A DNA stretch of 64,000 nt from Hexactinellida sp. DTS-2022 (lineage: Eukaryota > Porifera > Hexactinellida): NCBI GenBank assembly GCA_028753945.1, contig JAPNXP010000017.1:124001-188000 (forward strand), written 5' to 3'. The notes beneath the pieces are model-generated. The model searched no databases, had not been told where the DNA came from, and was given only the letters and a program-made list of their open reading frames with translations. Positions within the stretch are counted from its first letter, which is position 1. Each line of letters opens with the position of its first letter. This document shows, piece after piece, positions 3,254 to 63,625 of this stretch. Both the position numbers and the translations under genes were made by a program.

Positions 3254-3790
3254 CAGTGCTTCCAACCTAAAATATCCCAAAAGTGGGACCTGTGGCGGGA
3301 GTTTCATCTAAAAGCGGGAGGTAGATACTCTAAAAGCGGGAGAAAAAGCGGGAGGTCAGTATTTTAGTTAAATTAGCAAGAATACCTGAATAAAAGGCAG
3401 TATAAAAACATTTCTCTACCTATCAATTAGTTTCTACCCTCTAATATTGAATATAAGGTAGCAGTGAGCATTTTATTATTATTATTATAAAATATATAAA
3501 TAAATAAAAATTTCCTAAATGATGTGTTGTAAAATTCCCTAAATGATGTGTCAGAATGGAAAATTGGAAATACAAGATAATATACAGAATTATGGTATTT
3601 TAAAAGAGACAAATTTGTTTCTCGGGTTAGAGTAAATTAGTTAAGTGAAGACTACTAAAATATATTGCTTGTAATTATAAAATTAAGATTCTAATATTTA
3701 CATATACAATCATCCAAAAAGCGGGAGGTTTGAGAGGGGAGGCGGGAGAGCGGGAGGAAACATCAAAAAGCGGGAGGGTTGGCAGCACTG
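3254..3790. mobile_element. hAT-type MITE, GCGGGAG words (left arm copy)
   Basis: A 537 bp element with ends CAGTGCTTCCAACC and GGTTGGCAGCACTG. Both subterminal regions are built from repeats of the word AAGCGGGAG (about 3310-3360 and 3716-3785). It is flanked by the 7-bp direct repeat GATATAC. No protein-coding capacity is credible. The terminal core TTGGCA/TGCCAA is shared with the elements at 26733-27222, 15925-16215 and 11216-11542, whose internal words differ. Confidence 0.75.
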
Positions 3791-4207
3791 GATATACGCA
3801 GTATTTCAGATAGCCTTTGCAAATCTGCTCACCTTTGGGTTCGCAAATTAAACTATTTCTTACCTAAACAATACTAAAATCCCTATTTACCTAGCTGAAG
3901 CTGAATGGATATGGGAACGATAACAAATTTAAAGTTTATATATATTGCACCCAGATGAAAGCCTGATAATATGATATAAATATATATATATATTCTATTC
4001 TGTACACACCCACCCTGTTTGCACTTGAATTGATATATAACTAGACAATTGTTGTAATTAATATTTTATTGATAAATTAACACATAATATTTATATACAT
4101 ATTTACAAATTCCCAACTGACTTTCTTCTCTTGACCTGTATTTTCAAACATCAAACTTCCAACACACAATTAACTGGTTACGGGATTATGGCCTTTTAGC
4201 TCGTGCA

Positions 4208-4999
4208 ATGCAATGCAAATGTGGGGAGGAAATGTATGAGGGTGCCTACGCCAACTCCCAGGATGGTTACAAGTGGAAATGTCGCGCATGCAAGAGTTCC
4301 TGTTCAATCCGTTTTGGTTCCTTCTTTCATCCTTCCAAACTCTCGCTTACTTCGCTTCTCCAATTCATCTATCTCTGGTGTGAGGACATTCAGTCACACG
4401 CTATTATGGAGAAGCAGTTGCAGTGGGCACCAGCTACTGTTGTTGATTGGAAGAACTTTATGAGGGATATTTGTGTTGAAGAGATCATACAAGATGCTGA
4501 ACCCTTAGGTGGTCCCGGAATTATCGTGGAGATTGATGAATCCAAGTTCGGCAAACGTAAATACAACCGCGGAAGATTAGTAGTGGGTACTTGGGTTTTT
4601 GGAATAGTCGAGAGAGATTCAGGCCGAATGGTTATGTTATGTGTACCAGATAGATCTGCTGCAACTCTGCTACCCCTTATCCAGCATTACGTCCTACCTG
4701 GCTCCGTTGTATACTCAGATGAGTGGGCCGCATACAATATCTTGGCTCATACATCCCAGTACACGCATCACACTGTGAACCATAGTGAGAACTTCGTGAA
4801 TCCAACTACTGGTGTGCATACTCAAGGAATTGAAGGTAGCTGGAACATTGTTAAGAAAAGAATGAGAAGAGGATCAACTACTTACCCTGATGAACTGTTG
4901 GAAACACATCTGGCTGAGGGTTGTTGGAGGAGGAGAAACAAGGATAACATCTTTATCAACATCATAAAAGGGATCCGAAACTTATATCCAGTCGTTTGA
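4208..4999 (+). CDS. Merlin/ISXO2-like (IS1595-type) DDE transposase, left copy
   Basis: A 263-codon transposase of the Merlin group, the animal relatives of bacterial IS1016/IS1595 elements; it would cut and rejoin transposon ends in the nucleus. Near the N-terminus there is a zinc ribbon (CKCGEEM ... WKCRACKSSC, residues 3-31). The DDE/DDN core is visible as EIDESKFGKRK (about residue 108), VVYSDEWAAY (about 168) and QGIEGSWNIVKKRM (about 206). The open frame actually extends upstream of the first ATG with family-like sequence (INWLRDYGLLARA), back to a stop near 4117 with no ATG, so the natural start is uncertain. It lies on the inner end of the left palindrome arm, convergent with an identical copy at 6569-7360. 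No obvious defect is present in the core. Confidence 0.9.
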   Translation: MQCKCGEEMYEGAYANSQDGYKWKCRACKSSCSIRFGSFFHPSKLSLTSLLQFIYLWCEDIQSHAIMEKQLQWAPATVVDWKNFMRDICVEEIIQDAEPLGGPGIIVEIDESKFGKRKYNRGRLVVGTWVFGIVERDSGRMVMLCVPDRSAATLLPLIQHYVLPGSVVYSDEWAAYNILAHTSQYTHHTVNHSENFVNPTTGVHTQGIEGSWNIVKKRMRRGSTTYPDELLETHLAEGCWRRRNKDNIFINIIKGIRNLYPVV

Positions 5000-5110
5000 T
5001 CTCATCGGTTTAGGTTCGTTAATCTATATTAGCATTCTCTTATATTATTCTTAAATACGAGTACTGCGACCGGAAATTAAATTGATGAAATATTATTATT
5101 ATAATGTCAA

Positions 5111-5147
5111 CGAGCCTTTCGGTCTCGGTCGATTCGCCACGGACAAC
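5111..5147 (-). mobile_element. Helitron-like 3' end
   Basis: Read on the minus strand this gives CGACCGAGACCGAAAGGCTCG followed by T, matching the terminal signature of the copies at 26696, 40368 and 41388. The preceding hairpin is degenerate. No 5' end was located. Confidence 0.45.
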
Positions 5148-5312
5148 CACTACGCGGTTTATCTTTTTTTAATAGACAATAAATCTCAATATGCTTACCT
5201 ATTGTAACAATTTGAAAGCTATTCTACATTCCAATTATAATTGCTCTTTCTATTTGCATATAACCTTAGTACAATCTCAACAAAATTGTTAACAAACTAA
5301 GAAATAAATGTA

Positions 5313-5453
5313 TAGTGGTAGTTCGCTTAGTAGCAACCCGTGTTTGTCTATAAATCTGCTTGTTAATAGGCGAATGTTGCTAATTGGGGAATGAAATTAA
5401 CATTTTTCACGCTTGGGATCTTAAAAGCGGTTGCTAATAAAGCAACTCCACTG
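5313..5453. mobile_element. pogo/Tigger-type MITE (GTTGCTAATAAAGCAAC family)
   Basis: About 141 bp between TA dinucleotides, right end GCTAATAAAGCAACTCCACTG and a decayed left end resembling its inverse. The same right end occurs at 43240-43260 and the same left end at 41679. The interior has a GTTGCTAAT word in both halves. It is non-coding. Confidence 0.6.
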
Positions 5454-5813: not shown

Positions 5814-6178
5814 CAGTGTACTCCGCTTAATTGGGACACCTATGTTCCAGGCCAATTGTCCCAATTAAGCGGAGTACACTCACGGTACGTGGTATACCGA
5901 TGGTATAATTAGGTATAACCAATTATACCAAATTAGTGTCTAGTTTCGGTATTTCACCTTATGCTTAATATTTATTGAATTTACATAGATTACACCTAGA
6001 TTATACCAATATTATAGCACAATATACCACGGATATTTTGAGTATTTAGGGTAGTATAGATGTAGGTGTATTAAATGTGTAATGGAAGTTTAGAATATTA
6101 TACCGAACAGTTCCTAATTTGGTATAATTAATTATACCTAATTATACTATCGCTATCCCACGTACCATGAGTACACTG
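5814..6178. mobile_element. pogo-type hairpin MITE split by another element
   Basis: The left part (5814-5880) is a nearly complete hairpin: CAGTGTACTCCGCTTAATTG pairs with its inverse ending at GGAGTACACT. The final G and the TA target base pair lie at 6178-6180, separated by the element at 5881-6169, which duplicated AGTACACT on entry. Without the insert the element would be about 68 bp. Confidence 0.75.
5881..6169. mobile_element. hAT-like MITE, GGTATA words
   Basis: A 289 bp element with ends CACGGTACGTGG and CCACGTACCATG, flanked by a perfect 8-bp duplication AGTACACT (5873-5880 and 6170-6177). The interior is largely the word GGTATA/TATACC in both orientations. The 8-bp duplication fits hAT or P; the ends are CAC rather than CAG. 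It interrupts a pogo-type hairpin, so it is the younger of the two. Confidence 0.8.
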
Positions 6179-6235: not shown

Positions 6236-6422
6236 CAGGGCCGCCGAGAGGATTACCAGAGGCTTTGCGGGCCCCGGGGCAAAACAATAATGATGGGCCC
6301 CTCTGGAACCTTTCCCAAACCCAAATGTTCATTTTTACACGATTTCCTTATTTTCACGGGCCCCTCAGATCCACGGGCCCCGGGGCAACTGCCCCCCCTA
6401 CCCCCCCCTCTTGGCGCCCCTG
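6236..6422. mobile_element. hAT-type MITE, GGGCCCC words
   Basis: A 187 bp element starting CAGGGCCGCCGAGAG and ending TTGGCGCCCCTG, flanked by a perfect 8-bp duplication TGTACCTA (6228-6235 and 6423-6430). The interior is dominated by GGGCCCC and CCCGGGGCAA words. Proline- and glycine-rich frames across it are not genes. Confidence 0.9.
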
Positions 6423-6568: not shown

Positions 6569-7360
6569 TCAAAACACTGGATATAAGTTTCGGATCCCTT
6601 TTATGATGTTGATAAAGATGTTATCCTTGTTTCTCCTCCTCCAACAACCCTCAGCCAGATGTGTTTCCAACAGTTCATCAGGGTAAGTAGTTGATCCTCT
6701 TCTCATTCTTTTCTTAACAATGTTCCAGCTACCTTCAATTCCTTGAGTATGCACACCAGTAGTTGGATTCACGAAGTTCTCACTATGGTTCACAGTGTGA
6801 TGCGTGTACTGGGATGTATGAGCCAAGATATTGTATGCGGCCCACTCATCTGAGTATACAACGGAGCCAGGTAGGACGTAATGCTGGATAAGGGGTAGCA
6901 GAGTTGCAGCAGATCTATCTGGTACACATAACATAACCATTCGGCCTGAATCTCTCTCGACTATTCCAAAAACCCAAGTACCCACTACTAATCTTCCGCG
7001 GTTGTATTTACGTTTGCCGAACTTGGATTCATCAATCTCCACGATAATTCCGGGACCACCTAAGGGTTCAGCATCTTGTATGATCTCTTCAACACAAATA
7101 TCCCTCATAAAGTTCTTCCAATCAACAACAGTAGCTGGTGCCCACTGCAACTGCTTCTCCATAATAGCGTGTGACTGAATGTCCTCACACCAGAGATAGA
7201 TGAATTGGAGAAGCGAAGTAAGCGAGAGTTTGGAAGGATGAAAGAAGGAACCAAAACGGATTGAACAGGAACTCTTGCATGCGCGACATTTCCACTTGTA
7301 ACCATCCTGGGAGTTGGCGTAGGCACCCTCATACATTTCCTCCCCACATTTGCATTGCAT
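6569..7360 (-). CDS. Merlin/ISXO2-like DDE transposase, right copy
   Basis: This is the mirror copy of the gene at 4208-4999. It has 263 codons with the same zinc ribbon, EIDESKF, SDEWAAY and GIEGSW motifs. The two proteins differ only at the last residue (F here, V in the left copy), where the palindrome arms end at 4992/6576. The upstream in-frame extension INWLRDYGLLARA is also preserved. Two intact, convergent and essentially identical copies suggest very recent duplication, continuing gene conversion between arms, or activity. Confidence 0.9.
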   Translation of the reverse strand: MQCKCGEEMYEGAYANSQDGYKWKCRACKSSCSIRFGSFFHPSKLSLTSLLQFIYLWCEDIQSHAIMEKQLQWAPATVVDWKNFMRDICVEEIIQDAEPLGGPGIIVEIDESKFGKRKYNRGRLVVGTWVFGIVERDSGRMVMLCVPDRSAATLLPLIQHYVLPGSVVYSDEWAAYNILAHTSQYTHHTVNHSENFVNPTTGVHTQGIEGSWNIVKKRMRRGSTTYPDELLETHLAEGCWRRRNKDNIFINIIKGIRNLYPVF

Positions 7361-7777
7361 TGCACGAGCTAAAAGGCCATAATCCCGTAACCAGTTAATT
7401 GTGTGTTGGAAGTTTGATGTTTGAAAATACAGGTCAAGAGAAGAAAGTCAGTTGGGAATTTGTAAATATGTATATAAATATTATGTGTTAATTTATCAAT
7501 AAAATATTAATTACAACAATTGTCTAGTTATATATCAATTCAAGTGCAAACAGGGTGGGTGTGTACAGAATAGAATATATATATATATTTATATCATATT
7601 ATCAGGCTTTCATCTGGGTGCAATATATATAAACTTTAAATTTGTTATCGTTCCCATATCCATTCAGCTTCAGCTAGGTAAATAGGGATTTTAGTATTGT
7701 TTAGGTAAGAAATAGTTTAATTTGCGAACCCAAAGGTGAGCAGATTTGCAAAGGCTATCTGAAATACTGCGTATATC

Positions 7778-8314
7778 CAGTGCTGCCAACCCTCCCGCTT
7801 TTTGATGTTTCCTCCCGCTCTCCCGCCTCCCCTCTCAAACCTCCCGCTTTTTGGATGATTGTATATGTAAATATTAGAATCTTAATTTTATAATTACAAG
7901 CAATATATTTTAGTAGTCTTCACTTAACTAATTTACTCTAACCCGAGAAACAAATTTGTCTCTTTTAAAATACCATAATTCTGTATATTATCTTGTATTT
8001 CCAATTTTCCATTCTGACACATCATTTAGGGAATTTTACAACACATCATTTAGGAAATTTTTATTTATTTATATATTTTATAATAATAATAATAAAATGC
8101 TCACTGCTACCTTATATTCGATATTAGAGGGTAGAAACTAATTGATAGGTAGAGAAATGTTTTTATACTGCCTTTTATTCAGGTATTCTTGCTAATTTAA
8201 CTAAAATACTGACCTCCCGCTTTTTCTCCCGCTTTTAGAGTATCTACCTCCCGCTTTTAGATGAAACTCCCGCCACAGGTCCCACTTTTGGGATATTTTA
8301 GGTTGGAAGCACTG
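7778..8314. mobile_element. hAT-type MITE, GCGGGAG words (right arm copy)
   Basis: Mirror copy of the element at 3254-3790, with ends CAGTGCTGCCAACC and GGTTGGAAGCACTG and the flanking direct repeat GTATATC (7771-7777 and 8315-8321). The word appears here as CTCCCGCTTTT. Confidence 0.75.
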
Positions 8315-9384
8315 GTATATCTCAACTGTCTAGAGTAGTTATTTACTTCAGTACTGTATTGTCTCTCTAATAGTCCACCAGTGGGAAAACGACACAGGTG
8401 GACTATTAGAGAACATGGACTAATAAAGAATTTAGTCTTAATTAAGTAACATCAAAGGTAATATAACTAATATACGGTATTGTCAGAGTATTAGTACATT
8501 TAAATATAATCTCGCATATACTACATACAATCACTAAATTCATATAAACACGATGAGCAAAGTAAAATTATATAAGTGGACCAGTTGAGAACTTGAGTAT
8601 TAGAAAGTGGACTATTAGAGACAATTAAATGTAATGCAGTTGATTCATCTCAAAGTATTACATGAGAAATGCATTTCTAATTTTTAATGTACAATTGTAG
8701 CTTACTTAACGCTTCCAAGAGGGTTGAGCACAATATGACAGCGCATACCAATATATGGAATTTGTATATTTTATCCATATGTACGATAGTACGCCACTAG
8801 CAGCTCCAACAGTTATTAATTACAGACGATTAGCTTGCTTGCCTACCTCAGTTAACTTTTAATTTAATTGTTACGTTTAGGTAGCGTACCCCCATCAAAT
8901 AATTGTACTAGTTATTTGTCGAAGTTACTTTGGTAAGTGATCAATATTCTTATTAATATACGGGTAGTCTAACTAGTGATGATGGTGCAATTAAAAATTG
9001 ATTTCAAATATCTAGTAATGTTGTAGGCAATAATTAGGATATGATTGTCAACAAATTGATATCTTCAGAAATTTGAAAAGTCAAAATAGAGAGTTGAAAT
9101 TGACACATATAAAGATATGTGTTCTGTAATAGTCAAATTTAGCTTGTATGCACACGAGTAACTACTGTAATAGCATTGTTTACAGTATAAAAGGCTTCTG
9201 TGATGTTATCAATTTTCTCCATAGGGTTTGGCTTATAACTGATTTTGGCCGTAACTTTGTCAATTATTGTCCGATTTTGGGTTTCTTTTGGTCTATCTTC
9301 ATCATTTAGCGAGTTCTAGACGTGTACATACACCGTTTTAGCCTAACTCCACGAAATCTTGGAGGTGTTTATTACTGAAGTTGC

Positions 9385-9703: not shown

Positions 9704-11131
9704 CAGAGTTGGAATCGGGTTCGGGTTTCTCGGGTCGGGTCGGGTTCGGGTCGGGTTCGGGTTCAGATTCGGATTTAGAATCGGGTTCGGGTCGGGTTCG
9801 GGTTCGAAGTTGATCAGTTCGAACTTTGTGCGTAATTTTTTTAAATTCAATGAATTAATTCTATTTTTGGAAAGATTATATTTACAATAGAACATTATAT
9901 GGAACTTTAATGAAATGGCCTCATAAGGACATTTACGGGATAAATATTGTTTTTGAGATTGTTTCTCTCTTATTAGTAGAATTATGGTGTTTTTTGCTTA
10001 TTAAATAGACCAATTTTTAATGTTAGTGGTATAGAACTTGTAGAAAAATTTGAGCTCTTAACCTATCTTGATTTCGTCAAACTCCGTGACATTAGCCCCC
10101 AAACACCCGCATTTATATTATATTGAGAAAAAGGCCGTAAAGAATCCCAAAACGATTAAATTTACGAAGTAGTATTCGATAACTATACCATCTAACTTAA
10201 AATGGATTAATGATGTTACTAGGAAGTTGGAACTAAGCTCTAGCTTATTATTTAATTACAAAGTTCATGGTTTCATTTCTGAAATGACACCACCATATAT
10301 GGGTATGTAAATTTATAGAATAGTGACAATTTGGTTATGAGTCTCGTTTGCACTTCCAATGAGTTTGTAGTGGGATATTGATGTGAATAGATGGTTAGAT
10401 CTAAGCTCTAGAGTTTATACTTTCGTTGATATAAATTTTGCTGTGTTGGGCACATTACATGCCCATATAGGGATCATTTTGAAAACGGAGGGTGTTAGGG
10501 TCCCAAAATGTATTATGGACGTATAGGAAGTCGGGTATTGCGAGCATTTTGAGACGCTTTTTTTTATTCTAGCTGCTCGGGTTTCTGAGAAAAAAAATGG
10601 ACAAGAAAACGTACCCTCGAATGAGATTATAGACCATAAATGTTTAGATTTTCACTTTTTGCGTATTTTTTTTGATCAATTGTTGTTTATTTTCGTCATT
10701 GATTGCTAGGATAGAGTAATGATACCACCAATCTTACCATTGTTGAGGAATACAGTACTGATAATAGTTCAAAGTGGAAAAACCAGTGATCCGCTGTACA
10801 AAATATCTCATAACTCTGAAAATACGCGTGGACGTGGCTCAAAACCATATACAAACGTTAGTTATGGTCCTTCGGCAGTGTTTGGTACAAAACAAAAGTA
10901 GGTCATGTTGTCTTTTGGAGCGAAATTTCGATTTTTTTCCCTATGAGGAACACCCTTATATATATATTATTAACCCATAATATTGCAACAGAGTTGGAAT
11001 CGGGTTCGGGTTTCTCGGGTCGGGTTCGGGTTCAGATTCAGATTTAGAATCGGGTTCGGGTCGGGTTCGGGTTGAAGATCGTCGGGTTCGGGTCGGGTCG
11101 GGTTCTGAATAGGGACCCGATTCCAACTCTG
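9704..11131. mobile_element. Composite hAT-type element with CGGGTT word arrays at both ends
   Basis: The left end (9704 to about 9815) starts CAGAGTTGGAATCGG and is filled with CGGGT/CGGGTTCGGGT words. The right end (10989-11131) is by itself a complete small element with the same start and the inverse end CCGATTCCAACTCTG. The bases just outside the pair are ATTCAACC (9696-9703) and ATTCAACT (11132-11139), a 7-of-8 match, as if the whole 1.43 kb had moved as one unit. No matching 8-bp repeat flanks the inner copy. The body between contains a stretch of the repeat family also found at 13195-13760. Confidence 0.6.
10190..10545 (-). repeat. Dispersed repeat R1 (copy in the composite)
   Basis: Moderately diverged, inverted match to 13195-13760 and 62640-62960. 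Shared marks are CATATATGGG-like words, an AGCTCTA(A) block and a stretch around CCCAAAATGTATTATGGACG that matches inverted at 13200-13245. No coding capacity seen. Confidence 0.5.
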
Positions 11132-11136
11132 ATTCA

Positions 11137-13194: not shown

Positions 13195-13760
13195 TCGCAA
13201 TGCCCAACTTCCTATGCGTCCCTAATACATTTTGTGACCCTGACACTCAGGGTGTTATCCAGGCGTATTGGGCGCTCCTAAGGGAGCGTAATTTGGATGT
13301 ATTTTAATCTAGGCGTACAAAGATCGTGTCTAGGAGTACAATATCGAGAGATGCTCCCATAGACTTAATACAAAATGTGCAAACTAGCCTACAAAATGAA
13401 AAATGAACGAGCTCAAACTAAATCTAGGCGCGCAGAAATTTTGTCTGGATGAAAGCCTGCTGACACTCACAGTTTAGAAAATTACCATATATGGGCATGG
13501 AAATGTGCCAACTTTCGATGATGCAGCAATTTTGTATCTCATAAACTAGAGACTGTATAGCTTAGCTCTAAGCGATTATTCACATCTAGTATATATCATG
13601 CATATACCATTGGAATAATAATCGGGACTCTTATCCAAATCGTTACCATGCTAAGAAGACCATGTTCATATATGGGGTGTAATGTGACCATCACTGACCA
13701 TCAATCATGAATATCAAAGTTGAGGTAGAGCTTAGATCTCACTTGCTGACACTATTAGTA
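13195..13760 (+). repeat. Dispersed repeat R1, interrupted by a MITE
   Basis: A second copy of the repeat seen inverted at 10190-10545 and again at 62640-62960. Shared marks are CATATATGGGCATG, TTGTATCTC(A/C)TAAAC, AGCTTAGCTCTAA and a closing GGTGTAATGTGACCATCA-like block. It is interrupted at 13248-13459 by a hAT-type MITE. Confidence 0.6.
13248..13459. mobile_element. hAT-type MITE, CTAGGCGTACAA words (copy 1)
   Basis: A 212 bp element with ends CAGGGTGTTATCCAGGCG and TGGATGAAAGCCTG, flanked by a perfect 8-bp duplication CTGACACT. The word CTAGGCGTACAA recurs inside. A near-identical copy lies at 49473-49685 with its own duplication, so this family was mobile recently. Confidence 0.95.
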
Positions 13761-15420: not shown

Positions 15421-15806
15421 TTCAGATGGCCCTCTCATTAAAGAACAATCGTATTTATCATAATTAGTGAGGATCAGTGTGACCGATGTTTGTTTGTTCT
15501 TTACATGACTGATAATTGAAATGGCTGTACACGTGTATAAAAAGGAACTATTTTTGATCTTCAACAAATTACGTTCTGTTGGAAGTATTTTACAGTTACA
15601 GCTTTGGATAAGCCGATAACAAGCTGGTGAAATTCCGTGAATTTATGAACAAAAGACTTGAGTGAGAATATTATAACGGCGAGCATGTTTATCAACAATT
15701 ATTATTTCAGCTGATCGAGCAAAAATTAAGACGGGCTAGCATATAATCATTCTCGGCTTCGAAATCAAATGTGGAATGGGTAGGATCTAGTGTATCAATA
15801 GCACTA

Positions 15807-15891
15807 CAGTGCAACCTCGATTATCCGCAATTCTTGGGACCACTCAAATCTGTCCGGATAATTTACAGTCCGGATAATTGAGGTTTCACTG
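15807..15891. mobile_element. pogo-type MITE, CGGATAA words
   Basis: An 85 bp element between TA dinucleotides with ends CAGTGCAACCTCGATTATCC and GGATAATTGAGGTTTCACTG. The TCCGGATAAT word repeats inside. A related right half lies at 16401-16474. Confidence 0.8.
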
Positions 15892-15924
15892 TATATGCTA
15901 TGATGGGACCAACATAGAGTTGCA

Positions 15925-16215
15925 TACTTGCCAACCTATAGCAAGTCTTTGGCGGGACGGAGGAATCAATTTTGGCGGGACATAAGGAAGTTTGGCGGGA
16001 CAAAGAACATTAGTACATAAATAAGCGAAGTAGTATTACTATTACTAGTAAATAATAATTAATATACTAGTATATATACTATAATTAGAGTTCAAAATAG
16101 TGCTAGTAATTGTAATAATTTGATTATCACAACGGAAGGAACCTTGCACCAATTGCATAAAACGAGACGTCCCGTCAAAAATCTTTGCCTTAAAAGCGGG
16201 ACGGTTGGCAAGTAT
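15925..16215. mobile_element. MITE, GGCGGGAC words
   Basis: A 291 bp element with ends ATACTTGCCAACC and GGTTGGCAAGTAT (the match extends outward by C/G). GGCGGGAC(A/G) words sit near the left end, and GCGGGACGG with its inverse near the right. Flanks share only AGTTG, so a target duplication is not clean. The terminal core matches 11216-11542. Confidence 0.65.
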
Positions 16216-16225
16216 GAAGTTGGAC

Positions 16226-16400
16226 CAGTGGCGGTCCTTGAGTCGGGTTCTAAATCCGCCGCCCTAGGCAAAAGGTTCTAAATCCGCCCGGGACCGCCCC
16301 CCTATGCAACTTTGTTCACTCAGTTTACAAATATGCCGCCCCCTAAATTGTGCCGCCCTAGGCGACTGCCTAGTTCGCCTTAGTGGAAGGACCGGCCCTG
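16226..16400. mobile_element. hAT-type MITE, GCCGCCC words
   Basis: A 175 bp element with ends CAGTGGCGGTCCTTGAG and AAGGACCGGCCCTG. Flanks are GTTGGAC and GTTGGGAC, an 8-bp duplication apart from one base. CCGCCGCCCTAGGC words recur inside. Confidence 0.75.
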
Positions 16401-16474
16401 GTTGGGACAATATAGTGTGTCCGGATAATCGAAGAGTCCGGATAATCAAAGTCCGGATAATCGAGGTTGTACTG
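16401..16474. mobile_element. Right half of a pogo-type MITE
   Basis: GTCCGGATAATC occurs three times and the segment ends GGATAATCGAGGTTGTACTG before TA, matching the family of 15807-15891. Its left half appears displaced by the insertions at 15925-16215 and 16226-16400. Confidence 0.55.
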
Positions 16475-16496
16475 TAGTAAGATTATGAATGGCATT

Positions 16497-18459: not shown

Positions 18460-19204
18460 TGCTCAGTACCTAAATACTTAATCACACTGCACTATCAAGT
18501 ATCAGCGGCTTGATAGAGACAAAAGGAGCATGATTTACAGATCCAAGTATGTCAAGTTGTACTAAATGTAAAAGTTTTGTATTTTAACATGTTGTATGTT
18601 ATTGTATATATGCAATGAAACAGTGTTGACTTGTACGAAGAAGAACAAAGAAAATTCACTGTCTCTAAATCATCTGACATTAAGATCTCCAAGGATTGTT
18701 TTTTGGCACCTTGATACCACATTTATATTGTCAATAAGACATCAAATATTGTCATTTCAGTCCAAAACATTATTACTATTGACAAGTTTCTTCAGGTTAG
18801 AGTGTTATAATCGTGGAATCCTTGCGAATCTCTCAATCAGCTGGATGTTTGAAAACCGATAAATATGGACATTGATTGATTAATCAACACTCTTGGAAGG
18901 GAGTTCGTCTCAAGGAACGAGATTACAGATGTAAAACTACAATCAGTATGCGCATTTCTTGGGAACTTGGGAACTAGGTTCCCGTATATTCGGAGGTCCA
19001 CGGTAAGATTTTCAGCCTGAATTAAATGAGTAAAATATTGAAGTAAGAAATTTACCAAATGACAACGAATACTGTTTAAAATTTCGTAATATTGCCTCTT
19101 CCTCTGCATCCCGTTACCATGTATTTATTAGCTTACAAATAATTTTTACTGTGGCGACTATGTAATAGTGGCCCTGTTCTAAAATGCTTGCCTTTATTAT
19201 TGAT

Positions 19205-19606: not shown

Positions 19607-20040
19607 TTACACACATATATATTTTAGTTATTGAATTACTCAAACTATATTTTCGTATTTACTTTTAGTTTTCAAATACAAATATTGATATATTAAGTAC
19701 ACCAATTTTGCAATTGGGGCGAAAGTCTCCACAGTAAAGTTTTTTGAAAAATATTTGGTTCCCGTAAGCCCAGAAACAAATGCGCACCCTGACTACAATG
19801 TATTGGTTCGTCAAATCCTGGAAAATGAGAGGGCACTTAAAGAGTCAAATATTCTCAAGTTGTATGATAGGAAAGATTATGTCCATAAAGATCAAGATTC
19901 GTTTATGGAATTTATCAGCAGCTTAGAAACCCATGAAGATTATCTTTATCTCAGCATCCTGAGAATTGTGATTCACACATAATGTCTGTGGCCACTCTTT
20001 TGAATTTTTTTCATGAATTCATACACAAGACAAACCTATA

Positions 20041-23848: not shown

Positions 23849-24233
23849 CATGGGCGTAGGGAGGGAGGGAGTCAGGGGAGGGCAGTCCCCCCCCCCCCCC
23901 CCCCTAGCTCAGCCATTTTCGCCAGTTAATTATTCGTATTATTCAACGCCGTCAATTCCGTTAAATTATTGTTTTATTTTTAATTAATTAGCTTTAGCTT
24001 CTTATCAGAGATGTCCGAGGACTACTAATTTGCTGGACTATTAGTTTACTAATTTTGCTAGAACTAATAATTTGCTGCATGCAAATTAGTAGTCAAGGGG
24101 AACTATATGTTGAGCCTAAAAAATTCTGGGGGTTTCAGCCCCAGACCCCCTTTAAGTCGCTCGCGACGCTCGCTGGTTATACATTTGCCCCCCCCCCCCC
24201 CCCCCCCTAGATTTTGGCCTGGCTACGCCCTTG
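23849..24233. mobile_element. hAT-type MITE with G- and C-runs
   Basis: A 385 bp element with ends CATGGGCGTAGG and GGCTACGCCCTTG and a perfect 8-bp duplication TCTATGAC (23841-23848 and 24234-24241). It contains GGGAGGGAGG and long C-runs (23888-23904, 24188-24207), with repeated ACTAATTTGCT words in the middle. Confidence 0.95.
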
Positions 24234-24483: not shown

Positions 24484-24573
24484 ATGGGTCATGGGTCATT
24501 GGTCATGGAGCTGTGATCCATGACCCATCGATTTAGGTGACCCATCTGACCCATGACCCATCGACCCATGGTC
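24484..24573. repeat. TGGGTCA/TGACCCA word cluster
   Basis: The heptamer TGGGTCA and its inverse TGACCCA occur about eight times in 90 bases, first in one orientation and then in the other. This has the look of a very short word-built MITE. No clear terminal repeat or target duplication was found. Confidence 0.6.
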
Positions 24574-24589
24574 CACTCTGATCTATGTA

Positions 24590-25174: not shown

Positions 25175-25800
25175 TTATCATACTCTAATAGTCAACCAGT
25201 GGGTAGAAGGACCCAAGTGGACCAGTGTTCCCTCTAAGAATCCGTGACGGATCCTTTGGATCCGTGAAGTTAATTTAATTTCCGTTACGACACTTCCTGT
25301 GGGGAAAAATTCCGTGCTCAGATTTCATGTTCTACCGTACTCGGGAAAAAGGACAATGGGCGTGACTAGAACTACCACGTTGACTTCCCTTCAGTGAAGC
25401 GAGACAGCGCTGGACAACCTGTACATCCCGAACCTAACGAAGACTACTTCGCAGACTCTGATTTCGAACCGTATTCTGAGGAAAAGCGATGAGGATGATT
25501 GCGATTACGAAGTGGTACAAAAGAGTGGCTTTCTGGTAGAGGAATTCTGAAGTGCGAATGACTAGACTTTTCGCCACACTATCTTTGCATACATCAATAA
25601 GAATCTTAACAATATGAATAATAATCCTTATAATCCTATAGATGAAATTTCCGTTTTAAGGGTCCGAAATCCGTAAAAATCTGTCCGTGCGGAAATTTTG
25701 AGTGCCTTAGAGGGAACAACGAGGTGTACTATTAGAGAACATGGACCATTAAAGAATTTAGCCTTAAGTAACATCAATTAAATATACATAATATACTAAA
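25175..25800. repeat. TAGTCCAC-family repeat, interrupted
   Basis: ACTCTAATAGTC / CCACCAGTGGG-type words flank the MITE at 25223-25721, and ACTATTAGAGAACATGGAC resumes after it. The same words occur in both palindrome arms (2944-3215 and mirror) and at 27241-27545. The family looks like a palindromic pogo-type MITE; exact ends are unclear. Confidence 0.5.
25223..25721. mobile_element. hAT-type MITE, TCCGT words
   Basis: About 499 bp starting CAGTGTTCCCTCTAAG and ending CTTAGAGGGAACAACG. Flanks AAGTGGAC and AGGTGTAC agree at 6 of 8 positions. TCCGTGA/TCCGT words cluster near both ends. The middle (25360-25560) has higher GC and broken protein-like frames that I cannot assign. Confidence 0.65.
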
Positions 25801-26732: not shown

Positions 26733-27222
26733 CAGGGTTGCCAACTTTTTTTAAGCCCAAAGCGTGATATTTTGTCCTTTAAAAAAAAAAAGCGTGAGGA
26801 ATATAGTCTAAAGCGTGAGATTTTGTGAGAAAAGCGTGGAAAAATTTTTTCACTTCAGAAAGCAGTATAATAAGAAGTTATTTTGCCTCGCCCCTGAATT
26901 TTATTCTACCTATCTATTTTGATACATAATGCGAATAATTCTAAAAAATCTAAAAATTTAACATGAGTAATTATCTATTGTAATGCAAAATAATAAAATC
27001 TACTAATTCAAGACTAATAGTACTAAAATAGTTCATACTAAGCTAGTGCTCCTCGTTGTATTCTTTAGTAACTTTTTGTGACCTTATAATCAAATTGCAC
27101 TAGGTTTTTGACAATTTTACCATTTTATAATAAAGCGTGAGATTTCGAATCTAAGCGTGAGAGTGGGAGATTTTAAAAAAAGCGTGAGATTCACGCCTAA
27201 AGCGTGAGAGTTGGCAACCCTG
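26733..27222. mobile_element. hAT-type MITE, AGCGTGAG words
   Basis: A 490 bp element with ends CAGGGTTGCCAAC and GTTGGCAACCCTG and a perfect 8-bp duplication GTTTCTAG (26725-26732 and 27223-27230). The word AAAGCGTGAGA is repeated about four times near each end, with AT-rich filler between. Confidence 0.95.
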
Positions 27223-33037: not shown

Positions 33038-33503
33038 CAGAGGCGTCGCCAGGGGGGACTGGGGGGCTCGAGCCCCCCCCCCCACTTTTATTTGAGCCCC
33101 CCCTCTGAGCCCCCCCCTTGAGCTGCAATATAATATCATCCTCATAAGGATGTTACAACCTCTGTACTATGTTGTAATATAGAAATTACATTTACGTTGT
33201 CCCTGTTACCTTTGAATTAAAATGAATATTTGAAAAATTCAACCATATACGTACATAGTATTTGGAATTAATTTGTTTTCATTTCGTAAATATTCCTAAA
33301 TGCTAAATGCCTTCACCGCTGTGCCAATCGACAATTCCCTCCTCTGCTGTAGCTCCTTTATTACTATAAATTTGATAGATTTCTAAAACTTTACACTATA
33401 GTCTTGTAATAGAGCATTAAAAATATAAATTAATTGTGCCCCCCCTGAAATCCCCCTGCCCCCCCAGAGCCCCCCCTGATTAAAAATTCTGGCGCCGCCA
33501 CTG
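33038..33503. mobile_element. hAT-type MITE, GCCCCCCC words
   Basis: A 466 bp element with ends CAGAGGCGTCGCCAGG and CTGGCGCCGCCACTG and a perfect 8-bp duplication CCTCTGAA (33030-33037 and 33504-33511). Both subterminal regions repeat GAGCCCCCCC; the middle is AT-rich and non-coding. Confidence 0.95.
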
Positions 33504-42201: not shown

Positions 42202-42778
42202 CAGTGTTGTAAATCAAATCAAATATTTCAAATATTTGATTTGATTTGATTTGATTTAAGAGAATTTGAATTCTCAAATGATTTGATTTGATTTAATTTG
42301 AAATTATTTGAATCCTCAAATGATTTGATTTGATTTGATTTGAAAATATTTGAATTCTCAAATGATTTGATTTGATTTGATTTGAAATTATTTCAAATCA
42401 TTTTCAAATCATTTTCGAATCATTTTTCAAATCATTTTCAGATCATTTTCAAATAATATTCGGTAAATCATTTTCAAATCGTTTCCAAATCGCTTTAGTA
42501 TAATTTCACGTCATTTTCAATTCAATTTCAAATATATAAGATCATTTTCATAATTTTTGACAGTGATTCAGAAATGATTTGAAAGTTTCAAATATTTCAA
42601 ATATTTGATTTGATTTGATTTGAAATTATTTGAAATTTCAAATATTTGATTTGATTTGATTTGAAATGATTTGAAATCTCAAATGATTTGAAATGATTTG
42701 ATTTGAAATAATTTTAAATCTAAAATGATTTGATTTGATTTGATTTGAGAAAAAAAAAATGATTTATTTACAACCCTG
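42202..42778. mobile_element. hAT-type MITE, GATTT words
   Basis: A 577 bp element with ends CAGTGTTGTAAATC and GATTTATTTACAACCCTG and a perfect 8-bp duplication ATTTTCAT (42194-42201 and 42779-42786). Nearly the whole interior is built from GATTT/AAATC words, such as AAATGATTTGATTTGATTTG. A fragment with the related start CAGGGCTGCAAATC lies near 61094. Confidence 0.95.
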
Positions 42779-46998: not shown

Positions 46999-48247
46999 CT
47001 AATTTGCGTTTTCTTCTTCGAGATCATGTTTCTCCAAAACAGAGCAGAATGGTGGCATCTTGCGAGGCTTCCTAGTCTTTAGCATCAGGCTGGTGGATAC
47101 GTTGACCAGTTTTTCTAAACGTTCCTCACTCAGGCGGTTTCGCTTCTTCGATTGAATATCGGAATGGACTTTCCAATTTCGCTCGGCTGCGGCGTTAGTG
47201 CAAGGCAACTGCAGAACCCTTGTGGCAATGGGATTGAGTATTGATTTGCGACAAAAACTATTCCACCAGGTTAGGGTGTCTAACTTAGCAGCAGGAAATC
47301 CACTTGAATTCGCTGGCCCAGACGCCACTTTTGGTGTTAAATTTTGCAAACTCCATCATAACTTCTGCCTCTGATATGCCAAACTGAATGGCCAACGTGG
47401 ACAGGATATCTACTCAAGAGCTTCTTCTTCAACCGACAGTGAATCTCCCAGGTACCTCTGATCCAAAAGATTGGCGAGATAGTGAATGGGCTAAGTCGAG
47501 AAATCCTTTCGGCTAACTACTACATTTAACAAATGATTCTTCTCTATCAAAGAAATGCTGTCGGAATATTCCTGTATATGCTGAAAAGCCGACACACAAA
47601 CCCAATCTGAGAAACATCACTCTCCAGTAGCAGAATACCTTTAGCAACCGGTTGGAGCAATCGGTGAATTTTGGCTACACAGTCCCAGAACTCATCTGAA
47701 ATGACCAGCGTCTTAATACCGGTATCAATAATGCTCCGCACCTGCTTCTCCATAACAGTTGCTTCAAGTGCACTCCGGACTCGTAGGAGTCGAGCGAGAC
47801 AAAGGAACTTAGAACTCCAACGAGTGGCGACTGGAATAAATATCGCAAGCTCCTTGCCGTATTTTTCCACCCCCCACTGTCGAAAAACTGTCCGGGGGAG
47901 CTGATGATTTCGGAAGCACTTGGAGACAGCATTAGCTTGCTCTACAATATTGCGTCCTCAAATGTCTTCATAGAACCTTGCATCTTAGTTACTTTGAATT
48001 TAGAAGGGGTTGCTATTTCACTGGTTATAAAGGGTTCCTCGCCGATTTCGTCGCCAATTTCTTCTAATTGTCTCTTAGATCCCCGGAATAAGTTCTTTAC
48101 GTCCAGCGGCACAGCGGAGCACTGCAGTAGATGGTCCTTCATTTTGGTTGCGTTGTTCGTGAATCGTGCGTTTTGACAATACTGACAAGTTGCTAGTTTC
48201 TTGGTGCCATCAAGTTCCACTTTGTAATGTGCAGAGTTCCACACCAA
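46999..48247 (-). pseudogene. hAT transposase with internal deletion
   Basis: Minus strand, three segments. A BED-type zinc finger (CQYCQNARFTNNATKMKDHL) lies in 47942-48247. A middle part FIPVATRWSSKFLCLARLL is followed by LLQPVAKGILLLESD (47547-47870). The C-terminal dimerisation domain (WWNSFCRKS, RVLQLPCTNAAAERNW, KKRNRLSEERLEKLV) is at 46999-47349. The stretch that should hold the first catalytic residues between the BED finger and TRW is gone, and frame breaks lie between segments. It is GC-richer than the surroundings. It sits within the left half of the P element at 46338-52905. Confidence 0.8.
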
Positions 48248-48487
48248 ACTGATTTTTTTGACATGTGAAGAGCAAATTCATTAGCTATTCCAATTAAATT
48301 ACAAGCAGTGTAATTAATATTACATTTCTAGATATATTCTGTTTGAATTACAGGAAAAATTACGGCGCACAAATTAAATATCTTCTCTATATATTGTCTC
48401 AGAATTAATTCCGAGGAAAAATAACAAGCGCACAGTAACAACTCTGCATTATAGATATGGTTTATCTAAATTTCAAAACTAGGTATA

Positions 48488-49135: not shown

Positions 49136-49713
49136 TAAGTTGTTTAATACGTCTTTTATTGGCTGCGTATTACGTATATACGTAAAATGTAACACGTATT
49201 ATACGTATACCTTACTTATAATATCGAGCTCATGAAATTTTCTTTGAACAACTTTTGGTTTAATAGTTATTCTTTTATTGTTAATTGACTCGTAGTATAG
49301 TTTGTATAGTACAAATATGATTTTTTGCTAGATGTTGTTTTACAACAAGAATTAGAAATATTCGATTGAATTTACTTCGAAAACATCCCTGGTTGATCAT
49401 AGATTTAACGTATAATACGTACTGGTGGATAGCGTATTACGTATAATACGTATTAAACGTATTATACGCAATCAGGGTGTTATCCAGGCGTATTGAGTGC
49501 TCCTAAAGGAGCGTAATTTGGATGGATTTTAATCTAGGCGTACAAAAATCGAGTCTAGGCGTAGAATATCGAGAGATTCTCCCATAGACTTAATACAAAT
49601 GTGCAAACTAGGCGTACAAAATGAAAAATGAACGAGCTCAAACTAAATCTAGGCCCGCAGAAATTTTTGTCTGGATGAAAGCCTGTACGCAATACGCGTA
49701 TTTAACAACTTAG
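49136..49713. mobile_element. MITE, TACGTATTA words, with a nested MITE
   Basis: Ends TAAGTTGTTTAATACG and CGTATTTAACAACTTA. The 9-bp repeat CTTCTGAGC stands on both sides (49127-49135 and 49714-49722), compatible with a Mutator-type duplication. CGTATTACGTATA and TATTATACGTA words fill both subterminal regions. A hAT-type MITE (49473-49685) is inserted near the right end. Confidence 0.75.
49473..49685. mobile_element. hAT-type MITE, CTAGGCGTACAA words (copy 2)
   Basis: A 213 bp near-identical copy of 13248-13459, with ends CAGGGTGTTATCCAGGCG and TGGATGAAAGCCTG and a perfect 8-bp duplication TACGCAAT (49465-49472 and 49686-49693). Confidence 0.95.
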
Positions 49714-53852: not shown

Positions 53853-54294
53853 CAGGGGTTTTCAACCTTTTGTACCATGCGACCCCTTTTACAGATGTGG
53901 AAATGCTCGCGACCCCCCACAATGTTAATGTAAAGTTTTTATTCATGTGTAATAAGTATTCCTATTGTTTAATTAAATCGATGCACCTCAAGTTTCAAGC
54001 ATATTCTGGCAATTATGAAATAACTACAATACTATATGATTAAAAATTATCGCGAATGCCCTCAAAGCTCATTGATTAAATATTGCGTGTACATTACACA
54101 TGCGCACTGCACTTTTAAGTACATGCACAATGTCCACACAATATAAGCATTTAATTTTAGATAATTTTGATAAGTTTTGACATATATCTCGGTGAATTTC
54201 AACGATTTTATGTAAATTTCTCGGAACTTTACGCGACCCCCCTATAAAGCCTTCGCGACCCCTTGGGGTCGCGCCCCCAAGTTGAAAACCCATG
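53853..54294. mobile_element. hAT-type MITE, GCGACCCC words
   Basis: A 442 bp element starting CAGGGGTTTTCAACCTTTTG and ending CAAGTTGAAAACCCATG. GCGACCCC and GGGTCGCG words lie near both ends. Flanks begin ATATAC on both sides; the right copy was then split by the Tc1-like element at 54300. Confidence 0.75.
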
Positions 54295-56869: not shown

Positions 56870-57182
56870 TAGTGTATTAAAGGCCGTTTACTATCCATTG
56901 TATATATTCATCGAGTGGCATAGTGTCCCTGCCACGTGCAACTATGGCACGTAGCTATTTATGGCAAATAAGAAATTTACCACCTAGAGTAATTCGCCCC
57001 GTGCTATTCAAATCTGAAATCGGAATTTGTATATTTTAATTGCTTCATTAGTACCGAATTTACATATTTAATTGGCTTAGTATATAATTTATGAGTTTAT
57101 CACCTCTTAAAAATTCAAATTGCAAGAATTTGCTATTATATCATAATTAATATTTATATAAATATCCATGTAGAAGCATCTA

Positions 57183-57405
57183 CAGTCAACTCACGTTATA
57201 ATGAAGTGCTCGGAACCGTAGTTTCATTTCGTTAAAACCGGAGTTCGTTATAGGCAGAATTCGTCATAACCGGATTTCGTTATAACCAGAGTAAACCAAT
57301 AGCTTCTAGGCTATATTCGTTATAAGCGGAATTTCGTTGTATCCATTTCGTTAAAAACTAAGTTTTTGATAATGTATCCGACTTGGTTATAACGGGAGTT
57401 GACTG
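57183..57405. mobile_element. pogo-type MITE
   Basis: A 223 bp element with ends CAGTCAACTCACGTTATAAT and TTATAACGGGAGTTGACTG, TA on both sides; TTCGTTATAA(G/C)CGG words repeat inside. Close in style to 54866-55042. Confidence 0.9.
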
Positions 57406-57543
57406 TATAAACTTATTAATGCGGCTATTAACCGTTACTGTTTGTATAAAAATATTGTTGTTCAAATTCTTTTGTCCCGAAGTGTAGATTTTTTCCAATG
57501 TCAGCCAATTTAACCATTTATCTATTTGATAATGTCTTTATAG

Positions 57544-61265: not shown

Positions 61266-61470
61266 ATATTTACTTTTCCGACTACTATCTAGTGGGCCAG
61301 TTCTGAAATCTCTACCTTTATTATTATTATTTCTCCGTAGACAATGCCCTGGTCACACCTTATAGATTGAGGGCTGAAAGTTGGCATGTAGATGCGGTCA
61401 TGCGGAGTAACCGTTTTTTTTGCATCCTGGGCTACGATTTTTGGCAAAATAATTTAAACACCTATTTAAA
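61266..61470 (+). repeat. Repeat R2 copy
   Basis: CTATCTAGTGGGCCAGTTCT, CTCCGTAGACAATGCCCTGG, GGGCTGAAAGTTGGCATGTA match 16505-16660 in the same order with moderate divergence. Following sequence to 62080 is AT-rich and featureless. Confidence 0.6.
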
Positions 61471-62082
61471 CTAATTATAGCCCATAACATGAAATAATGA
61501 AATGTAACCTATATCAAATTTATATGTAATTGATATCTGATTAAATTATACACCTTTTGGCTAATCACGAATGTTCAAATTGGCCTTGAATTTTTCACTA
61601 ATTGGTGTCCCAATTTCCATTGTTTCCTAACACTTCAGATTATGTAAAAGTGTTAAATATATTGCTCTATTATTTCAATTTGTGTTTTGAGCCTACTTAT
61701 ATTAAATTACAGTATTTCTACACGATCGATTAAAGCTAACTAAATTTACTAAATGAATTTGTTTGACTGAATTAATTCACTGTATATGTTAATGTTAAAT
61801 TAATTAACGCTTCTGTATATATCCTCAGTACGTATTACGTAGTATGGCTATTATTTTTATTGTAGTAGAAACTTGAACTTTTAAACGTGGGGCAACTCTC
61901 GTTGACTAAAGTAAACAAAATGGATTTAAAAAAAATGCCTGAGAATGCCATCATGTGACTAGATTACATCAAAAATCTACTTTTTGGTCCCCATTGAAGA
62001 TAGTAGAATGCAATTGATTTGTTTGAAGTAGTAAATCATAGGAAACCTCGGTTTTTATAACTAATATCTCATCAACAATATA

Positions 62083-62275
62083 CAGTCAGGTCTGCTTATT
62101 ATGAACAAGATTTCGTCTGCTTATTATGAAGATTTTTTATTATGAACAAACCCTACGGTCCCAATTAACAACTTACATAGGGTTTGTATTAAGTTGAGAT
62201 CGCTTATTATGAAGTCTCTCTATTATGAACACAATTTTTGGTCCCTTGAATGTTCATAATAAAAGAACCTGACTG
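62083..62275. mobile_element. pogo-type MITE, TTATTATGAA words
   Basis: A 193 bp element with ends CAGTCAGGTCTGCTTATTAT and TTCATAATAAAAGAACCTGACTG (written in part), TA on both sides. GCTTATTATGAA/TATTATGAAC words occur five to six times. Confidence 0.9.
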
Positions 62276-62639
62276 TACTTACTTTATTTCCAACTGAGGT
62301 TTTCCTTTCTAAAGGAACAAAATGACATTTTATTTGTAATTTATAAAATTTTCGCTGGATTTCGACGAAATTTGACGGATTTTGGAAATCTTTCCTGAAT
62401 AACTTTTGAATAAGGAACAATTTGGCAAACGCATCAGGTAAGATTATAACTATAAATGTGTTACTTCGTTAGAAAAAACTTTCTACTTTCTATTATAAGT
62501 ACTTTCTACTTTCTATTATAAATATTTTTCGGATCTTTAGGGTACGGATTCTGAACTAATTTGTATCTCAGAGAGGAAAAGAGATAAATTCAAGTTGCCC
62601 TAGTGAAAAATTATCAGCCACATGGTTTCCCATATGTAA

Positions 62640-62960
62640 ATAAAACTTTTTGTGAGCCTAGGACGCACCGTTTTCGACATTGCCATATATGGTAGTGTGA
62701 ATGTGACCCATTTTGATGACACATGCAAATTTGTATCTCCTAAACGGGAGACTCTAGAGCTTAGCTCTAAACTACTAACCACATTGATATATCATCTCTA
62801 AATCATTGCAAAGTCAAAAATCTCTCAAACCAAATGGTTACCTTGCTATAAACTCGAATGCCCATATATGAGGTGTCATGTGACCATCAAAAGAGAGAAA
62901 ATCCAAATTAAAAGTGAACTAGGGCTTAGTTCTAACTTTCAGACACTATCAGTGATTGAA
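62640..62960 (+). repeat. Dispersed repeat R1 (third copy)
   Basis: GCCATATATGG, TTTGTATCTCCTAAACGGGAG, AGCTTAGCTCTAAAC, CCCATATATGAGGTGTCATG and TGACCATCA blocks match 13490-13760 in order. No coding capacity. Sequence from 62960 to 63469 shows nothing further. Confidence 0.6.
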
Positions 62961-63469
62961 TTCCAGCTAGATGGCCTATTTTAATTCCTCCCCGAATCAA
63001 TATTCTTCTCTGTAGACGTGTCGAAAATCCTCTCTGCCACCTCAAAACCACCATATCTAATTATAGACTGCCACAATTTCTGAAGCTTAGTTTTGGGGAA
63101 TTTTTGAATTTATAACGCTGAAATTTGGAATATAGCACTATAATCAGTAAACTAAGACCTGTATACAGCCCCGATTATCCTAATTTGTCCTTAATTAAAA
63201 TCTGGACACCTTTGGGAGAAAAAATGTGGCTCAATTTTAAGTAATCCGTCCGTTTCGTCGAATATTGCCCAATTCTAATGAAAAAAATTCACTTTTCGCT
63301 ATGGTCACACCCCTGGCGTGGGTAAAGGGGACATGGTGTAATGGATTTGGCCGATTTTTAGTTCTGCACTCTTTTTCAATTTCCCAGAAATAATTTTATC
63401 ACATATGGTTCACCTTCCCTAATCCGAATAGGAGATACCAAAATATTTTATAATTAAAGTGAGAAAAAG

Positions 63470-63625
63470 CAGGGCCGGCTTTAGGCACACGCAACACAAT
63501 CAACCGCGTGGGGCGCCTATGATTTAGGGGGCGAAAATTATATAATCAATTCGTATTTGATGGAAAAACGCGGGGCGCCAAGATACTTTTTGCGTGGGGC
63601 GCCGAACGAGCTAAAGCCGGCACTG
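63470..63625. mobile_element. hAT-type MITE, GGGGCGCC words
   Basis: A 156 bp element with ends CAGGGCCGGCTTTAGG and CTAAAGCCGGCACTG and a perfect 8-bp duplication AGAAAAAG (63462-63469 and 63626-63633). CGTGGGGCGCC is repeated in the interior. The rest to 64000 is AT-rich with no gene. Confidence 0.95.

Follow-up and report, generated by a model that had tools for sequence, protein, structure and literature searches.

Transposases of the hAT superfamily bind short subterminal repeats, the word of the maize element Ac being AAACGG. Maize Ac/Ds resembles the elements considered here in its dense short sites near both ends and its non-autonomous relatives, and differs from them in using one word; we know of no series of words in one genome for Ac/Ds. 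The present analysis concerns a 64,000-nucleotide stretch of the Hexactinellida sp. DTS-2022 genome (contig JAPNXP010000017.1, positions 124,001 to 188,000; G000:C9:124001-188000 in our numbering, hereafter the window), in which hAT-type miniature inverted-repeat transposable elements (MITEs) carry repeated words of their own, together with the transposase-bearing hAT elements of the surrounding genome (112.4 Mb, 18 contigs, one assembly). Comparison of words, transposases and zinc fingers makes it likely that the words are the sites of each hAT lineage's BED finger and that each lineage keeps its own word, which is probably an address read by the family's own enzyme.

The best solved relative of these transposases is Hermes (E ~5e-20), which likewise combines a hAT transposase, a BED finger with a dimerisation domain and many short sites per end, and for which the reading of subterminal repeats through BED fingers is already established (PMC10368747). 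The repeats read are AAG(T/C), an inferred site, with 17 and 14 copies in the two ends (PMC10368747). Unlike Hermes, the genome studied here holds many lineages, each with another word, including a subset with words one base apart and a common terminal inverted repeat (TIR). In Tol2, AAGTACTT adjoins the TIR and is the same palindrome as in the AAGTAC lineage described below (PMC10368747), whereas that lineage carries 16-25 copies of AAGTAC in its two 350-base ends. The diversity of hAT BED specificities is also known already: different hAT BED proteins prefer different 8-mers on protein-binding microarrays, and where motifs were obtained, for four hAT elements, they have matches in the subterminal regions of the element's own ends (Yellan et al., 2021; PMC8097297). 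That study measured proteins, mostly derived from host genes, whereas the present one approaches the question from the DNA side, with a word at both ends of 14 elements in one genome and a one-base series. Among the titles and abstract openings of the literature searched, none told of hAT words that differ by single bases within one genome. As far as this search tells, what is new is the tying, on the DNA side, of at least seven words to their transposases in one genome, together with the existence of relatives that share one TIR, have words one base apart and differ in the finger at the matching residue.

The broader question is how a cut-and-paste transposon changes its recognition when dozens of sites must change along with it. 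Because these relatives have a TIR in common, use words that differ by a single base and diverge in the finger at a residue that touches a base in Hermes, the evolution of such an address becomes testable with small proteins and short DNA, and, if the reading proposed here is true, it would yield part of a BED-finger reading code together with a set of parallel pairs of transposon ends and enzymes.

Words at both ends of transposase-bearing elements

Genome-wide searches returned 638 candidates for the hAT dimerisation domain (PF05699) and 370 for DUF4371, at least 150 of each being scored, as well as 62 BED fingers. The 3' flanks were read for 70 of the 150 scored PF05699 matches (30 fetched loci and 40 more; L-numbers denote genome loci fetched and read outside the window), and a 6-mer excess of z>4 was present in the 550-base stretch just past the domain in 29/70, compared with 12/70 for an equal-length distal stretch. 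For 16 transposase loci the 5' flank was taken as well, and ten of these (L031, L032, L037, L038, L042, L045, L046, L049, L050 and L051) have a TIR, a target-site duplication (TSD) matching in at least 7/8 bases and the same word at both ends. These ten, three further loci (L035, L039 and L060) and the autonomous partner of the window MITE at 9704 make up the set of 14 elements discussed below.

In 11 elements of this set the gene is enclosed by a TIR and a TSD matching in 7/8 bases or more, and the commonest 3' 6-mer is enriched at the 5' end in all 14 (each p 0.0025, the floor of 400 shuffles). The words are GTATTT in L031, L046 and L035; GTACTT in L051, L042 and L032; GTAATT in L049, L038 and L039; GTAATA in L050; ATCCGG in L037; CCGGGA in L045 and L060; and TCGGGT in the partner of 9704. 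The resulting 14 x 7 matrix is nearly diagonal, with 10-26 copies of an element's own word and 0-5 of the others, and GTAATT is sparse (one to five copies) both in L050 and in the GTANTT-group elements that use another word. A single short motif repeated many times close to each end, the Ac/Hermes type of subterminal repeat, was found in every one of the 14.

Among 15 transposases compared, identity does not exceed 47% between those that use different words, and words follow transposase clades. PF05699 scores over the cut-off in L042 (E 4e-17), L035, L060 and the fragment of the 9704 partner, and zf-BED does so in L042 (E 1e-8) and L035; a zf-BED search of L060 found none. Mobilisation of all families by one autonomous transposon regardless of word is excluded genome-wide. 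The original prediction that the arrays look like transposase-binding sites, with a new word for each family, is supported in part: at the genome level by the both-end words, the clades and the conservation seen in the 26733 family, with limits set by the single window family paired with an autonomous element, by the 7-base duplications at 3254 and by the arrays of non-hAT elements, all described below.

Two candidate pairs were rejected: at L083, a seventeenth locus with a 5' flank, another kind of transposase stands beside the array of a neighbouring insertion, and at L098 the array was likewise assigned to a neighbouring insertion. As separate observations, the GTANTT-series hATs at L046 and L039 lie within larger word elements with 8/8 TSDs (ATGGGTCA and GGGAATCC, respectively), word families thus nesting in each other, and dense arrays of a further word, CAACTC (19 copies at L038, 14 at L052), occupy the distal stretch past the transposase.

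A one-base word series and its BED fingers

A subset of these hATs shares the end CAGGGTTGGGTTCAA and uses AAGTAC, AAATAC or AATTAC (GTACTT, GTATTT or GTAATT on the other strand), the first copy of the word abutting the TIR. Eleven transposases form one group (support 97/98). In a tree built without the finger, the GTACTT and GTAATT lineages are each recovered at 100/100 and L035 with L031 at 95/95, and L046, a GTATTT element, groups with the GTAATT lineage (90/91); a single group of the three GTATTT elements, named after an earlier tree, is rejected (approximately unbiased test, p 0.005). The fewest word changes amount to four, the minimum for five words, so that GTATTT may be ancestral.

The TIR is nearly constant, CAGGGTTGGGTTCAANTA having 358 matches in the genome and none in the control. 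Among the 100 matches listed of these 358, N is G in 68, T in 30, A in 2 and C in none, and neighbouring ends of opposite orientation form 35 pairs no more than 4 kb apart, of which 29 span 524-723 bases and three 2.6-2.7 kb. Paired ends carry the same base in 35/35 cases among the matches listed (27 GG, 8 TT), an agreement reached in 0/20000 permutations, which indicates that the two words (G and T) were kept apart among elements sharing this TIR.

In an alignment of seven fingers, C27, C30, S42, N43, H47 and K49 are invariant. Hermes binds zinc through C51, C54 and H71 (with C73), and all of its base-specific contacts come from S66 and Q64, from N67 and R70 as a pair, and from the R63 and T65 main chain (PMC10368747). 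The spacing of C27, C30 and H47 equals that of Hermes C51, C54 and H71, so that S42, N43 and position 46 align with Hermes S66, N67 and R70. Position 46 is lysine in the AAGTAC elements (L042, L032, L051), threonine or leucine in the AAATAC elements L046 and L035 (L031 is broken there), and threonine in the AATTAC elements (L039, L038, L049) and in the GTAATA element L050. Of five finger predictions made in advance, two were compared with newly read loci: L124 (AAGTAC) has lysine, and L125, the finger of L052 (word CAATTA), shows F-H-T when read across a frameshift; both lie in or near clades already seen and are therefore weak tests. With about four independent lineages, the match between residue and word amounts to a suggestive correlation and not to a code. 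A profile search with the seven fingers retrieved ZBED1 at E 4e-5 and the Hermes BED chain at E 1.1 only, ending at its residue 71, and a search with a single finger gave nothing useful.

Tentatively, and as a proposal that falls a little short of being probable, the residue that aligns with Hermes R70 may determine the third base of AANTAC, lysine going with G and threonine or leucine with A or T, and a change of the finger would be accompanied by the joint rewriting of all 16-26 sites at both ends behind a near-constant TIR, which would make these sister transposons with separate addresses a natural specificity series for the hAT BED finger.

Miniature elements of the window and their families

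The original prediction had described at least ten short elements in the window, at 12 named positions, with CAG-type ends, 8-bp duplications and dense arrays of a private word. A scan for CA..TG ends (TIR) with an 8-base target duplication gave 13 candidates, ten of which coincide with the named positions; the other three rows start at 18944, 23849 and 35796, the last being probably chance. Apart from 3254, the 11 named elements have an 8-bp TSD matching 8/8 in eight cases and 7/8 in two, with a weak one at 25223 (Table 1). The observation is thus confirmed in part: 8-base duplications are present at 10/12 positions, 3254 having a 7-base duplication and 25223 a poor one, and CAG-type short TIRs are present at the left ends of 11/12, 5881 being the exception.

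Table 1. Transposon-derived features of the window (window coordinates; duplications from the window scan unless marked as read by eye).
Position	Strand	Feature	Word	Ends, duplication or other evidence
3254..3790	+	CAG-ended MITE, superfamily unsettled	GCGGGAG (7 in core)	TIR CAGTGCTkCCAACC
5881..6169	+	Palindromic element	GGTATA	Ends CACGG; TSD AGTACACT 8/8
6236..6422	+	hAT-type MITE	GGGCCCC	TSD TGTACCTA 8/8
9704..11131	+	hAT MITE	TCGGGT	TSD 7/8; ACCCGA 8 and 12 per half
13248..13459	+	hAT-type MITE, weak array	CTAGGCGTACAA	TSD CTGACACT 8/8
15806-16477		Tigger/pogo-like MITE	CGGATA	Split-half both ways
16226..16400	+	Additional hAT-like MITE	CCGCCC	TIR, TSD ~7/8 by eye
18944-19791		Other hAT-like element		TIR + 8-base-duplication scan
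23849..24233	+	Additional hAT-like element	no clear private word	TSD TCTATGAC 8/8
24487..24580	.	Array with right end CCCATGGTCCACTCTG	ATGGGTCA	Exact TIR at 24565
25223..25721	+	Old hAT-type MITE	TCCGT	Ends match; TSD poor, ~6/8 by eye
26733..27222	+	hAT MITE (GCGTGAG family)	AAAGCGTGAG	TSD GTTTCTAG 8/8
33038..33503	+	hAT-type MITE	GCCCCCC	TSD CCTCTGAA 8/8
42202..42778	+	hAT MITE	ATTTGA/GATTT	TSD ATTTTCAT 8/8
46999..48277	-	Degenerate hAT transposase fragments (dimerisation domain)		PF05699 E 2e-6 for 47002-47355
49473..49685	+	hAT-type MITE, family of 13248		TSD TACGCAAT 8/8
53853..54294	+	hAT MITE	GCGACCCC	TSD 7/8
57180-57409		Tigger/pogo-like MITE	AACGAA	Split-half both ways
62082-62278		Tigger/pogo-like MITE	ATTATG	Split-half both ways
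63470..63625	+	hAT-type MITE	GGGGCGCC	TSD AGAAAAAG 8/8

The named words, picked post hoc, were compared with dinucleotide shuffles of their own elements, and in all 12 elements the word lies above its shuffle mean, in line with the predicted enrichment: GCGGGAG 7 against 0.01, CGGGTT 17 against 0.93, GATTT 38 against 11.3, AGCGTGAG 5 against 0.00, GCGACCCC (53853) 5 against 0.00, GGGCCCC 4 against 0.63, TCCGT 8 against 1.1, GCCCCCC 7 against 0.66 and GGGGCGCC (63470) 3 against 0.04. A split-half test, in which the best 6-mer of one half of an element is counted in the other half, is free of post hoc word choice; it is passed in both directions by 3254, 5881, 9704, 42202 and 53853 (5/12), in one direction by 26733 and 49473 (2/12), and failed by 6236, 13248, 25223, 33038 and 63470, several of which are short. 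Against random equal-length window stretches, the best 6-mer falls at 6% or less for 3254, 5881, 9704, 26733 and 42202 (5/12). Graded by these two tests, the claim of a dense private array stands firmly for some half of the elements named, word arrays being weak in the short G+C-rich ones; with one exact copy of CTAGGCGTACAA in 13248 and two in 49473, the term is too strong for that family. Among the additional elements, 16226-16400 has a best 6-mer count of 5 against 2.1 (shuffle p 0.003) and fails the split-half test, as 18944-19791 and 23849-24233 do in both directions. The elements at 3254 (GCGGGAG) and 26733 (GCGTGAG) share an end type and CAGGGTTGCCAAC and have words one base apart; the words are therefore not all unrelated. 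As further observations on placement, the element at 49473 is nested within a CGTATTATACG-rich stretch, and the right end CCCATGGTCCACTCTG at 24487..24580 is also the end of the outer element with the 8/8 TSD at L046.

Matches to the element ends are far more numerous in the genome than those to the reversed pattern used as control, so that the families are real. The pattern covering both the GCGGGAG and GCGTGAG families (3254/26733 ends) gave 318 matches against 0, the 9704 end CAGAGTTGGAATCGGGTTCGGG 62 (at most 3 mismatches) against 0, and the TIRs of 42202, 53853, 25223 and 63470 gave 226 against 1, 63 against 0, 14 against 0 and 43 against 0, respectively. A 97% identical copy of the 42202 element, with the TSD GTTGAGAA (8/8), is inserted in a transposase-like open reading frame (ORF; L126). 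For the 26733 family, 20 distinct both-ended copies, the window's included, were recovered among 30 fetched matches; the TSD is 8/8 in 18 of them, and the other two have 7/8 and 6/8; L011, L012 and L014 have one duplication sequence in common and may be copies of one insertion. Between four diverged copies (L018, L028, L029, L030), 111/112 TIR positions and 115/122 positions of the GCGTGA core are identical, compared with 852/1177 elsewhere (words 94% against 72% for the rest, Fisher 6e-9), a contrast that is somewhat inflated insofar as alignment may favour repeated words. In the diverged copies of this one MITE family, conservation of the GCGTGA words thus comes close to that of the TIR.

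The GCGGGAG family departs from the 8-bp TSD test of the hAT superfamily. The element at 3254-3790, with matching 14-base ends, is flanked by the 7-base duplication GATATAC (7/7; 0/8 as 8 bases), and the second insertion read (L118 3351-3811) shows the same (7/7; 0/8), so that on both insertions the family is not to be filed as hAT by its TSD and is perhaps not hAT. This suggests that the look-alike GCGGGAG and GCGTGAG ends hide a change of cut stagger or of superfamily.

The pairing of each word with an autonomous hAT, as envisaged in the original prediction, succeeded for 9704 and yielded none for 3254, 26733, 42202, 53853, 25223 and 63470. Two copies of the 9704 end are suitably oriented towards a hAT domain at a distance of ~2.7-3 kb. 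In the partner on G000:C11, with one end at 3245342 and the other near 3242157, the domain ORF (PF05699 E 7e-16; Hermes E 7e-8) has a TCGGGT array and then the mirror end behind it, and the duplication GGCTGCAG flanks both sides; the element at 9704 is 92.5% identical to it over 253 bases at the 5' end and 85% over 128 bases at the 3' end, and is a deletion derivative of the autonomous hAT on C11. The copy on C15 has the 5' end and the array, its 3' end not being seen in the stretch read. When TIR coordinates were compared by eye with 150 scored PF05699 and 150 scored DUF4371 domains, no partner emerged for 3254 and 26733 (among the matches listed, the first 100 of 318), for 42202 (likewise the first 100 of 226) or for 53853, 25223 and 63470, and no clear match to MITE words or ends was found near the first 30 transposase loci. 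As most domain candidates were unscored and the end matches are only those listed, the missing partners are weak negative evidence.

Three apparent partners were rejected: at L118 a GCGGGAG MITE interrupts an ATGGATC hAT in its 5' portion, at L123 a 42202-family MITE adjoins an AAGTAC hAT, and L126 is the interrupted ORF mentioned above. At C5:2140701-2146823, where GCGTGAG MITE ends stand 6 kb apart, inspection of the outer-part ORFs by eye, with no family search, revealed none that is transposase-like.

Explanations for the words and other features of the window

The subterminal words are best read as the predicted targets of the BED zinc finger at the N-terminus of the family's own hAT transposase. 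Physical binding at many sites per end would allow several fingers of the transposase assembly to hold one end, and the words would in this way serve mobilisation; many hAT lineages would coexist in the genome, each with its own word, short non-coding copies would stay mobile by keeping ends and words, and in one clade the word would have moved by single bases (AAATAC, AATTAC, AAGTAC) with the TIR almost constant and the finger changed to match.

Several results weigh against this reading. The 12/70 distal control stretches with z>4 include an element's own displaced array in some cases (L031, L058) and other insertions in others. L035, L039 and L060 have the same word at both ends without a clean duplication, inspection by eye shows arrays at either side of L054 and L058 but no matched TIR or TSD, and the 5' flank of L040 has no array. 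A hAT-transposase partner with the same ends was found for one window family, with six others searched. In 14 close copies of the 26733 family, words and remaining sequence are both ~93-100% kept, with no clear advantage for the words, and the 7-base duplications of GCGGGAG next to ends so near those of GCGTGAG mean that similar ends and words are no guarantee of a common kind of transposase. A Hermes donor with mutated left-end sites (those near bp 183 and 190) kept ~70% activity (PMC10368747), so that extra copies may matter little. Moreover, word arrays also occur outside hATs: 3/7 window elements that we take, from their ends and TA sites, to be Tigger/pogo-like pass the split-half test both ways; in the stretch 34748-36102 a 15-base unit (GGATGTTTCGTCGCC and variants), repeated about seven times at 34748-34856, precedes an ORF for a FLYWCH + MULE transposase (PF10551 E 2e-11); and further arrays form inverted clusters at 21048-21217 and 23155-23281. 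Such arrays make own-word ends a wider habit of DNA transposons here, as would follow from a general use of repeated sites by transposases or from MITE growth through duplication of end parts.

The arrays could instead be minisatellite-like growth inside MITEs, through slippage, unequal exchange or conversion between ends, the word having no reader. Some arrays are near-tandem (Tandem Repeats Finder, TRF), and the Tigger/pogo-like MITEs show the same own-word trait, but the same word stands at two ends of ~2.4-3.9 kb elements with a gene between, is conserved nearly like the TIR in diverged copies and follows transposase clades, and we regard this explanation as improbable. It is less far-fetched, though still unlikely, that the terminal repeat simply extends inwards to include the word, which would have no other role, further copies being passive residue; the position of the first copy beside the TIR in CAGGGTTGGGTTCAA families and the activity left to Hermes with some left-end sites mutated (PMC10368747) speak for it, whereas the two 350-base ends retain 10 to 26 copies and few of the other words, and the inner word copies are conserved in the diverged GCGTGAG copies.

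Two further alternatives bear on history and classification. Separate horizontal transfers of unrelated hATs, without any radiation in this genome, would account for different words in transposases at most 47% identical, and a single assembly does not make the place and time of divergence visible; this is a serious possibility, which we nevertheless doubt somewhat, and it would alter the history while leaving the link between word and finger, the splits being undated here. For some window families, GCGGGAG (3254) foremost, membership of another CAG-ended superfamily with repeated end words is evenly balanced: the 7/7 duplications at both insertions favour it, but the ends and word are nearly those of the GCGTGAG family, with its 8/8 duplications in 18/20 copies, and the insertions are two only.

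The window holds further features of interest. Inverted GTCATTAGTTCGA clusters (21048-21217 and 23155-23281) lie ~2 kb apart, the two ORFs between them having no Pfam match. The degenerate hAT fragments at 46999..48277 pair with no window MITE, and their parts 47550-47957 and 47945-48277 gave no match in a Pfam search. The element at 3254-3790 sits within the left arm of a palindrome and has its mirror copy at 7778-8314; complementarity of the two 2,816-base arms (2184-4999 and 6569-9384) is 100%, both contain a GCGGGAG MITE and an intact ORF of 292 residues for an IS1595/Merlin-type transposase (PF12762 E 2.7e-19, one arm), and the palindrome is young or kept by conversion. An intron-rich gene of RSE1/CPSF1 type on the + strand (28854-60503) spreads its exons over ~31 kb with transposons in between. 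Finally, a minus-strand ORF at 23408-23764 encodes a Myb/SANT-like domain (PF13873 E 1e-13), which is usual in Harbinger-type elements.

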